Assembly (NCBI GenBank): GCA_031289755.1
Contig: JAITOU010000034.1
Location: forward strand, 1 to 63,302
Direction of reading: 5' to 3'
Length of the DNA stretch: 63,302 nt
Origin: Clostridiales bacterium
Lineage (GTDB): Bacteria; Bacillota; Clostridia; Christensenellales; JAISNN01
In this document: positions 35,009 through 60,960 of the stretch, one piece after another
Numbering within the stretch: the first letter of the stretch is position 1
Layout of the letters: each line of letters opens with the position of its first letter
Translations under genes and position numbers: made by a program
The notes under the pieces: model-generated
Told to the model about the DNA's origin: nothing
What the model saw: only the letters and a program-made list of their open reading frames with translations
Database searches by the model: none

Positions 35009-35278
35009 GGCTGTGCTAAGTGGGGAGCTAGCGGTGCCCTGTGACCCGCAATCCGCTATAGCGGGACCGAATGCCCTTAGCGGCGGTTGTGTGGAAAGTC
35101 TGACTTTGATAAGGAATGTTGATATCAAGGTCCCATCCAATGTAAATCTGTGAACCATGTCAGGACCGTGAGGGAGCAGCATTAAGCAGACCATTATATG
35201 TGCCATGGGGAAGCTTTGAAGGAGTCACCTGTCAACAGTACCGTTTCGGCAGGACTGGTCAATAAGGGATGCACAGTT
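35009..35278 (+). ncRNA. ffs: Large signal recognition particle RNA (Bacillus/Clostridium type)
   Basis: About 270 bases align in order with the Bacillus scRNA: GCTAAGTGGGGAGCTAGCGG and TGCCCTGTGACCCGCAATCC in the Alu domain, then the S-domain core GAACCATGTCAGGACCG with GAGGGAGCAGCATTAAGC, then TGTGCCATGGGG. The ends pair (CTGTGC with GCACAG). It is the scaffold for Ffh in co-translational membrane targeting. A promoter precedes it and a terminator follows. Exact ends are approximate by a few bases. Open frames on this stretch are spurious. Confidence 0.95.
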
Positions 35279-36546: not shown

Positions 36547-36634
36547 GTCCGTTTTTGCGTATAGATAACCTAAATCATTGTCGACAAAAGTTAAGCTTTC
36601 TTTTGCTTTACTTTTTTATTATTTTTTTATATAA

Positions 36635-36798
36635 TAGATTAGTCCTATAACCTATATGACGAACAGATTGTAGCGGATTTTTGCCTTATACAAGGCGCAT
36701 TTGACGCCGTGTAGCGTAAGCTACACAAGGAAAAGGCAACGCTGTATAAGGCAAAAAGACGCAAAATATGTCGGCAGATAGGTTATAGGACTAATCTA
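36635..36798. mobile_element. MITE-like foldback element with 21-bp perfect terminal inverted repeats
   Basis: The ends TAGATTAGTCCTATAACCTAT (20 of the 21 bases: AGATTAGTCCTATAACCTAT) and their exact complement bound a 164-bp element flanked by ATAA on both sides (36631-36634, 36799-36802), a likely 4-bp target duplication. Inside are the inverted pair TTTTTGCCTTATACA / TGTATAAGGCAAAAA and a tip hairpin GTGTAGC-GTAA-GCTACAC (36709-36726). There is no coding capacity. A partial relative lies at 60861-60957. A weak promoter (TTTACT-17-TATAAT, to 36635) abuts its left end, so the hairpin may be carried in the ileS leader. Confidence 0.75.
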
Positions 36799-36878
36799 AT
36801 AAAGGCAATATTTGTATTGTTTTTATGCAATATTTTGTAATAACGATTTATATCTTCATAAAAAACGAGGTTTTTATA

Positions 36879-39800
36879 ATGTACAAAAAAGTAACCGCCG
36901 ATATGAATTTTTGCGAGAGAGAAAAAGAAGTTTTAGAATTTTGGAAAAGCAACGGTATTTTTAAAAAAACCGTCGAGCACGGCGAAGGAAAGCCGGCGTT
37001 TACCTTTTATGACGGACCGCCGACTGCAAACGGCAAGCCGCATATCGGACATATTTTGACAAGGGTTATCAAGGACATTATTCCGCGCTATAAGAGCATG
37101 AAGGGCTATGACGTATTGAGAAAAGCCGGCTGGGATACTCACGGCTTGCCTGTGGAGATAGAGGTCGAAAAGTCACTCGGACTTGACGGAAAAGCCGATA
37201 TCGAACGCTACGGCGTCGAGCCATTTATCAAAAAATGCAAAGAAAGCGTTTGGAAATATAAAGCCGAATGGGAAAAAATGAGCGAACGCGTCGGTTTTTT
37301 TATGGACATGGACGACCCTTATATCACTTATCAGGACGGCTATATCGAGTCGGTATGGTGGTCCTTGAAGCGGATTTTTGACAAAGGACTGATATACAAG
37401 GGGCATAAGATAGTGCCTTATTGTCCGCGTTGCGGCACTGCGCTTTCTTCGCACGAGATAGCGCAAGGCTACAAAAACGTCAAAGAAAAATCCATATACG
37501 TCAAATTTAAACTCAAAAATAAGACGGACGAGTACTTTATCGCATGGACGACTACGCCGTGGACGCTTCCGTCTAACGTCGCGCTTTGCGTAAATCCAAA
37601 GGAAAAGTATTCCAAGATACGCGTCAATCAAGAATATTATATACTCGCGGACGCGCTTATTCCTTCGCTTTTTGAAGAAGGCTCTTACAGTGTAATAGAT
37701 ACAAGGACAGGAAAGGACTACGAATATACCGAATACGAGCGGCTCTTCGCTTATGATACAAAAGCCAAGGAAAAGGCATATTACATTACCTGCGGCAGTT
37801 TTGTCACCCTTACGGACGGCACGGGAATAGTCCATATCGCGCCCGCATTCGGTCAGGACGACTATGAGGTCGGCAAGGCTTACAAGCTGCCGTTCGTCCA
37901 AATGGTCAACGACAGGGGTAATTTTACCGACGAAGCAACCGATGTCAAGGGTATGTTTGCAAAGGACGCCGACAAGCTCATCATATCGCTTTTAAAGGGC
38001 AGGAAGCTGCTTTTTAAGGAGCTGCTCTACGAGCATAGCTATCCGTTTTGTTGGAGATGCGACACGCCGATTCTGTATTATGCGCGGTCGAGCTGGTTTA
38101 TCAAAATGACTGCGGTCAGAGAAGCACTGCTCAAAAACAACGCTTCGATTAATTGGATGCCTCCGGCTATCGGCACGGGCAGAATGGGAAACTTTCTCGA
38201 CGAAGTACAGGATTGGAGTCTGTCGAGAGAGAGATATTGGGGAACGCCGCTGCCTATCTGGGTGTGCGACAAATGCGGCAAGCTTCACGCCGTCGGCAGT
38301 AAGGCGGAGCTTATCGGGCTATCGGGCAAAAAAGACGACATAGAGCTTCATAAGCCGTATGTCGATGCAGTGACCTTTAAATGCTCTTGCGGCGGCACTT
38401 TTAAACGGACAAAGGAAGTAATAGATTGCTGGTACGACAGCGGCTCGATGCCCTTTGCACAGTGGAATTATCCTTTTTCAAATAAGGAGATATTTGAAAA
38501 ACGCTATCCGGCGGATTTTATCAGCGAAGCCGTCGACCAGACACGCGGTTGGTTTTATACCTTGATAGCCATATCGACATTGCTTTTTGACAAGCCTTCC
38601 TTCAAAAACTGTATCGTTCTCGGACATATCAACGACAAGGACGGCGTAAAAATGAGCAAGCACAAGGGCAACGTCGTAGACCCTTGGAGCGTTCTCGATA
38701 AGCAGGGTGCGGATGCTGTAAGGTGGTATTTTTATACCGTCAGTCCGCCGTGGATACCGTCGAATTTTTACGGAGAAGCCGTGAGCGAATCTCAGAGAAA
38801 ATTTTTGGGAACGCTTTGGAACGTCTACGCTTTTTATGTTCTGTACGCCGACATCGACAAATTCGACCCGTCGAAATACAAATTAAAGGATTGTAACCTT
38901 TCGCTTCTCGACAAGTGGATACTTGCCAATCTCAATTCGCTCATAAAGGACGTCGACGACGGTCTTAACGAATATAAAATCACGGAAAGTGCCAGACGCA
39001 TACAAGAATTTACCGACAAATTGAGTAATTGGTATATAAGGCGTTCGAGAGAAAGATATTGGGGCAGCGAGATGACGGACGACAAAAAGGCGGCATACAT
39101 GACGCTTTATACCGTTTTGAGCCAATTATCTAAGCTCATCGCGCCGTTTACTCCTTTTATTGCCGAGCAAATCTATCAAAACATCGTCGTCAATTTTTAT
39201 AAAGACGCGCCTATAAGCGTGCATTTGTGCGATTATCCGTCCTGCGACAAGAAGTATGCAGACAAAGCCTTAGAGGACGGCATGGATTATGTCTTAGAAA
39301 CCGTCGAGCTTGCCAGAATTTGCAGAAGTAAGGCGAATATCAAAAACAGACAGCCTTTGAGCCGTTTGTATTTAAAGGACACGGCACAGCGTGCGCTCTT
39401 CGGCAAGGAGCTTCAAGACCTTATAAAGGACGAAATCAACGTCAAGGAAATATCGGCTATCGTCAACGACGAGAAGTTTTTGACTTACGACATCAAACCG
39501 CAGTTAAAGGTCTTAGGACCAAAATTCGGAAGCCGTATCAAAGAAGTCAGAGAATATCTTGCGTCGGTGAATTGCTACGACGTTGTGAGCGCGCTCAAAG
39601 CAAACGGCGTTTTCATAGGAAATTTGAACGGCGAAACGGTCGAATTTAAAGAAGGCGACCTGCTCATATCTCCCGTAAACAAGGAAGGCTTTGTCGCGGA
39701 ATCGGGTGAGGCTCTTACCGTAGTTTTGGACACAAATCTCACAGACGCGCTCATCGAAGAGGGTAACGCGAGAGAAATAGTCAGCAAAATACAATCGATG

Positions 39801-40022
39801 AGAAAGGAAGCCGGCTTTAACGTCACGGACCATATCTTTATAGGCTTCAAGACGGACAAAAAGGAATATGCGGAGATATTTTTGAGCGGAAAAATCAGCG
39901 GCGACGTTCTCGCCGACAAGACGACCGAAGGGCTATTTGACGACGGCTACAAAAAGACGTGGGACATCAACGGAACGGACGTCGAGCTTACGCTTAAAGT
40001 CGCCGCGTCAAGGAAATTATGA
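36879..40022 (+). CDS. ileS: Isoleucyl-tRNA synthetase, long (IleS2-like) type
   Basis: This 1047-residue class I synthetase has the HIGH motif in GPPTANGKPHIGHIL, the CP1 editing domain with AWTTTPWTLPSN, WDTHGLPVE and the KMSKS equivalent GVKMSKHKGN. Length and HIGH-region sequence fit the eukaryote-like IleS2 class (about 1040 residues) rather than IleS1 (about 920), and the IleS1 C-terminal zinc finger is absent. A cysteine cluster (CDKCGKLH, then KCSCGG) lies mid-protein. The start is the ATG at 36879 after CGAGG. No T-box is visible in the leader. IleS2 enzymes are generally poorly inhibited by mupirocin (known of the class). Confidence 0.93.
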   Translation: MYKKVTADMNFCEREKEVLEFWKSNGIFKKTVEHGEGKPAFTFYDGPPTANGKPHIGHILTRVIKDIIPRYKSMKGYDVLRKAGWDTHGLPVEIEVEKSLGLDGKADIERYGVEPFIKKCKESVWKYKAEWEKMSERVGFFMDMDDPYITYQDGYIESVWWSLKRIFDKGLIYKGHKIVPYCPRCGTALSSHEIAQGYKNVKEKSIYVKFKLKNKTDEYFIAWTTTPWTLPSNVALCVNPKEKYSKIRVNQEYYILADALIPSLFEEGSYSVIDTRTGKDYEYTEYERLFAYDTKAKEKAYYITCGSFVTLTDGTGIVHIAPAFGQDDYEVGKAYKLPFVQMVNDRGNFTDEATDVKGMFAKDADKLIISLLKGRKLLFKELLYEHSYPFCWRCDTPILYYARSSWFIKMTAVREALLKNNASINWMPPAIGTGRMGNFLDEVQDWSLSRERYWGTPLPIWVCDKCGKLHAVGSKAELIGLSGKKDDIELHKPYVDAVTFKCSCGGTFKRTKEVIDCWYDSGSMPFAQWNYPFSNKEIFEKRYPADFISEAVDQTRGWFYTLIAISTLLFDKPSFKNCIVLGHINDKDGVKMSKHKGNVVDPWSVLDKQGADAVRWYFYTVSPPWIPSNFYGEAVSESQRKFLGTLWNVYAFYVLYADIDKFDPSKYKLKDCNLSLLDKWILANLNSLIKDVDDGLNEYKITESARRIQEFTDKLSNWYIRRSRERYWGSEMTDDKKAAYMTLYTVLSQLSKLIAPFTPFIAEQIYQNIVVNFYKDAPISVHLCDYPSCDKKYADKALEDGMDYVLETVELARICRSKANIKNRQPLSRLYLKDTAQRALFGKELQDLIKDEINVKEISAIVNDEKFLTYDIKPQLKVLGPKFGSRIKEVREYLASVNCYDVVSALKANGVFIGNLNGETVEFKEGDLLISPVNKEGFVAESGEALTVVLDTNLTDALIEEGNAREIVSKIQSMRKEAGFNVTDHIFIGFKTDKKEYAEIFLSGKISGDVLADKTTEGLFDDGYKKTWDINGTDVELTLKVAASRKL

Positions 40023-60860: not shown

Positions 60861-60957
60861 TTTTCCTTGCGTAGTGTCCGCACGCCCTAAATGCAACGCC
60901 GTATAAGGCAAAAAGACACAAAAAAATGTCGGCAGATTAGGTTATATGACTAATCTA
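60861..60957. mobile_element. Partial second copy of the MITE-like element
   Basis: The right half (60893-60957) matches about 60 of 66 positions of the right half of the 36635-36798 element, including GTATAAGGCAAAAAGAC, ATGTCGGCAGA and the terminal GACTAATCTA. The left half is missing or degraded; TTTTCCTTGCGTAG at its start resembles the inverted internal segment. It ends four bases before the rpe promoter. Confidence 0.7.
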
Positions 60958-60960
60958 ATA

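Follow-up and report, generated by a model that had tools for sequence, protein, structure and literature searches.

Short repeats of several bacteria and one group of insertion sequences (ISs) are the closest described systems. BrickBuilt and MITE464 of Porphyromonas gingivalis are IS5-derived MITEs that are non-coding, intergenic and present in tens of copies (PMC4596501), while RUP and BOX of Streptococcus pneumoniae are small intergenic Firmicute repeats, some of which form hairpins (PMC3049150). One Correia element of Neisseria is reported to have inserted just past the mtrCDE promoter, with the transcript being cleaved by RNase III at the repeats (PMC10969869). Here, we describe a 162-bp foldback element ahead of ileS in a Clostridiales bacterium, found in a stretch of 63,302 nt (the window). 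Like BrickBuilt and MITE464, it is non-coding, intergenic and belongs to a family of tens of copies, but it has no internal minisatellite such as that of BrickBuilt, and its long foldback spans the whole element. Its ends differ from those of RUP and BOX. The likeness to Correia elements is one of form, both being short foldback elements, and no relation in sequence is claimed; Correia elements duplicate TA, whereas this family has TATAAT-like targets with an A-W-T duplication. With the ISL2 group of the IS5 family (DDE_Tnp_4/HTH_Tnp_4), for which a 3-bp A-N-T duplication is the general rule, the element shares that type of duplication (measured here in related ISs) and AGA ends, but no IS with the ends of the MITE was found in its own genome. 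We consider the element very probably a gene-less short DNA transposon (MITE) that depends on a DDE transposase acting in trans, the ISL2 group being its most likely source, and that sits behind an intact −10 box, where it would give ileS a hairpin leader. It represents a real MITE family, ordinary in kind and, as far as our searches go, apparently undescribed. The kind of element is already known; what looks new is the family itself, its three-base target rule and the fact that it has landed repeatedly on promoter TATAAT boxes.

The sequence-only reading had placed a foldback at 36635–36798, with perfect 21-bp ends, a nested second inverted pair and a tip hairpin. Direct reading and an inverted-repeat search reproduced the architecture, with outer arms at 36632–36662/36771–36801, nested arms at 36673–36692/36743–36762 and the hairpin at the tip, but moved the bounds to 36636–36797 on the (+) strand (subfamily T1). 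The terminal repeats match perfectly over 20 bp, with the left copy (AGATTAGTCCTATAACCTAT) at 36636–36655 on the (+) strand and the right copy at 36778–36797 on the (−) strand; base 21, a T/A pair, belongs to the target duplication instead. When the element and its flanks (36600–36830) were folded as single-stranded DNA, the free energy was −56.3 kcal/mol, compared with −20.5 ± 3.3 for shuffled sequences (z = −11). The end sequence AGATTAGTCCTATAACCT matched three times in the window against 0.02 matches expected.

We searched the genome of origin (1.98 Mb, 46 contigs, 93% complete) for the element and found 67 matches, a count to which the same palindromes also contribute matches on the opposite strand, along with 58 matches to a second subfamily with ends AGACTTGTATCCTAACTTAGACGGC. 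The end sequence thus recurs throughout the genome, a search that the earlier reading had proposed. Curation yielded 27 two-ended copies in two subfamilies on 17 contigs, plus many fragments. Most copies were 150–163 bp long, with one of 267 bp and five internally deleted ones (44–108 bp), and the best were 97–98% identical to the window copy. Copies occurred in both orientations, between tandem (n = 17), divergent (n = 6) or convergent (n = 3) gene pairs, with one copy having no right neighbor in its stretch, and none of the 27 overlapped a long ORF. One end of contig C45 falls within an element, as expected of a repeat that breaks assembly. The window itself holds a second, truncated copy, which had been noted as a partial relative at 60861–60957 and proved real: its right part matches the window copy at 90% over 60889–60960, the element portion spanning 60889–60956 on the (+) strand with one mismatch in the end and AAT following at 60957–60959. 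Fused to this copy is a second short repeat end, AGGGCGTGCNNACACTAC (60870–60888, (−) strand), which is also joined to a MITE interior in G120, a genome from another family of the order (C102:3764–3782, L153), and which makes a tiny palindrome of its own, AGGGCGTG...CACGCCCT, at C42:39975–39993 (L155); it may represent a further MITE family, or else a mosaic.

With the boundary set at AGA...TCT, the three flanking bases were identical on both sides in 20 of the 27 copies and were then always AAT or ATT. Shuffling the flanks among copies gave a mean of 10.3 equal pairs, and 20 was reached in none of 20,000 shuffles. Since the middle flank base agrees directly and not by complement, these bases are duplicated and do not extend the inverted repeat. 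At the window copy, the duplicated AAT lies at 36633–36635 and 36798–36800 on the (+) strand. The ATAA duplication suggested previously was coincidental, given that a 4-bp duplication in that register occurred in only 2 of the 27 copies as opposed to 20 for the 3-bp one. Turned to read AAT, the targets were part of TATAAT in 8 of 20 cases, compared with 27 of 442 (6%) for a background made up of the AAT sites of intergenic DNA in this window only (p = 1.3e-5). This preference may simply be one for AT-rich sequence of this type; several of the remaining copies follow T tracts resembling terminator ends, or lie in other AT-rich DNA, and not at promoters.

The transposition products of this family show AGA...TCT ends and a 3-bp A-W-T duplication, with copies placed only between genes and TATAAT favored, and we infer mobilization in trans by an ISL2-type transposase. 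MITEs are commonly accompanied by an autonomous partner, although their classification does not depend on it. In the own genome, an assembly 93% complete, searches with DDE_Tnp_1 (IS5/IS4-type transposases) and DDE_Tnp_4 gave no match, and no autonomous partner with matching ends was found there, the only relatives with partly similar ends lying elsewhere. Single ends and end pairs (e.g., in regions of contigs C22, C26, C2, C7 and C30) were also considered as brackets of an autonomous element and were rejected, as they flank ordinary genes with no transposase visible by eye. DDE_Tnp_4 transposases are carried by congeners G003 and G005, with pieces that score against HTH_Tnp_4, DDE_Tnp_4 and the NCBI IS5 model NF033581 (below the cut-off of the last). 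In G005, a broken element of ~900 bp (L107) with HTH_Tnp_4 and DDE_Tnp_4 has the ends AGACCTATACGGAAACTGA and AGATCTATACGGAAACTGA and AAT on both sides, while the right end of a multicopy IS reads ...GGGTTATTGAATAAGTCT (reverse complement AGACTTATTCAATAACCC) and is followed by AAT, ATT, ATT and AAA. The end of this multicopy IS, the closer of the ISs compared, was identical to the MITE ends at 12–15 of 20 positions, a modest similarity (p = 0.0006 to 0.03, several comparisons). A further relative in G244 has AGCCCTC...GAGGGCT with AGT on both sides. Among the ISL2-type elements, L107 and L114 show the A-N-T duplication, the MITE family's own being A-W-T. The multicopy ISL2-type IS of G005 breaks several contigs (L110, L112, L121, L122 and L124) and may therefore be active.

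The transposase with matching ends that the earlier reading had proposed looking for did not turn up in the own genome, but the genus does contain related transposases that obey the same target rule. Because they share the A-N-T target and have related ends, the ISL2-type IS5-family elements (DDE_Tnp_4) of congeners are the best candidate mobilizers, and the A-N-T rule together with the AGA-like start fits the ISL2 group. A MITE moved by a transposase from outside ISL2/IS5, which would follow the A-W-T rule merely by chance, would agree with the lack of an ISL2-type match in the own genome and with the modest end similarity; we nonetheless regard it as rather unlikely, as ISL2-type elements of the genus and of the order share both AGA...TCT ends and the A-N-T duplication.

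Alignment of the 21 full-length copies revealed an interior core (36690–36736, (+) strand) that consists of a nearly invariant GGCGCATTTGACG strand, the tip hairpin GTGTAGCGTAAGCTACAC and an AGGAAAA strand. A 10-base block, GCGCATTTGA, was 99% conserved, compared with 71–77% for the outer repeats. Of 45 consensus pairs, 20 had changed on both sides, including pairs in the tip hairpin; end pairs must co-vary if one transposase meets both ends. The family offers a case in which to ask how the inner part of a transposon without genes comes to outdo its ends in conservation; possible reasons include a recent common master copy, a requirement of transposition and a host function. Among 396 genomes of the order, clear relatives were found only in G120, where copies have the ends AGACTRGTCCTATAACCGAA and, at L135 and L137, AAT on the right, a pattern that suggests horizontal spread or patchy loss. 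G120 also holds a MITE subfamily (L136, L137 and L139) whose ends are similar but whose interior hairpin is another one, GGCAATAGTGTCGCTATTGCC; a copy of this subfamily lies directly behind TATATAAT. No match to the element was obtained in phages, plasmids or viral contigs; one viral contig (L152) matched the interior pattern, apparently by chance, with no element around it, and a Phascolarctobacterium match (L048), in apparent coding sequence without element context, was taken as chance as well. A 25-base match in congener G001 (L031) may also be due to chance.

The conservation of the interior above the ends, and the related interior in G120, a bacterium of another family, would suit a domesticated repeat of the REP/BIME kind, its interior kept for a function such as protein binding or mRNA processing and transposition being only its history. 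Full terminal repeats, matching duplications and copies up to 97–98% identical point to recent transposition, however, and G120 has copies with a different interior too, which makes such a repeat very unlikely.

The window copy lies directly behind a promoter. A promoter scan placed TTTACT-17-TATAAT (10 of 12 consensus matches) at 36607–36635 on the (+) strand, with the −10 box (36630–36635) abutting the element, ahead of ileS (36879–40022, (+) strand), whose first 200 residues are 90–93% identical to the IleS loci of four congeners. The same promoter is kept, empty of the element, in congeners G002, G003 and G004; of the empty-site comparison proposed earlier, the promoter part held, but the divergence of the flanks precludes defining the empty site to the base. 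A second copy, at C29:144839, lies directly behind TTGTAA-17-TATAAT ahead of a gene read as a putative YlqF-like GTPase, ahead of which G002 has TTGTCT-17-TATAAT and no element; here again, sequence past the promoter has diverged too far for the empty site to be placed to the exact base. These two, at ileS and the YlqF-like gene, are clearly promoter insertions, and at both the element has entered directly behind an intact −10 box. The non-autonomous (MITE) reading is well supported by recurrence, target duplications and promoters without the element in congeners. The element has 20-bp perfect terminal repeats and is short (162 bp) with no transposase gene, and its family combines many dispersed copies, the AAT/ATT duplication and empty promoters in relatives.

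A riboswitch-like or otherwise structured regulatory RNA, kept ahead of ileS for its function, would explain the very stable fold, the 99% conserved internal block and the paired changes that extend into the tip hairpin, but it is extremely unlikely, and the empty sites already refute most of it: relatives were examined for a conserved structure at the ileS site and none was seen, congeners having the promoter with no such leader, and the element occurs at 26 other intergenic sites, in both orientations and in some cases between convergent genes, with no Rfam family matching it.

For the MITE, the position just behind TATAAT offers a simple way of being tolerated, since the promoter stays complete there; a selfish element can in this manner enter even the promoter of an essential gene. 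Because the element lies directly behind the intact ileS promoter, the ileS mRNA should start within it; judged from the position of the promoter only, the old promoter would still drive ileS from a start ~7 bases into the element, and the 5′ end of the mRNA would be a stable hairpin of ~150 nt. Correia elements provide an analogy, on which a leader of this kind may affect the decay of the mRNA, for instance if RNase III cleaves it, and the family offers a tractable case for whether repeated hairpin leaders alter mRNA stability. A bolder version, which we hold to be distinctly unlikely, is that the transposase prefers to open and cut −10 boxes, that the AAT duplication saves the host promoter, that a standard hairpin leader comes with every insertion of this type and that the conserved interior acts on the transcripts of many genes.

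In two loci from other families (L086 and L087), the ileS leader, read by eye, appears to be a T-box (GGTGGTACCGCGGAA-like); by the same kind of reading, a T-box leader of ileS is not apparent in the genus of the window. The Rfam search of the window, which returned no family at the element, matched only a tRNA and an SRP RNA, the latter being a large bacterial SRP RNA gene at 35011–35276, ~1.3 kb upstream of the element.
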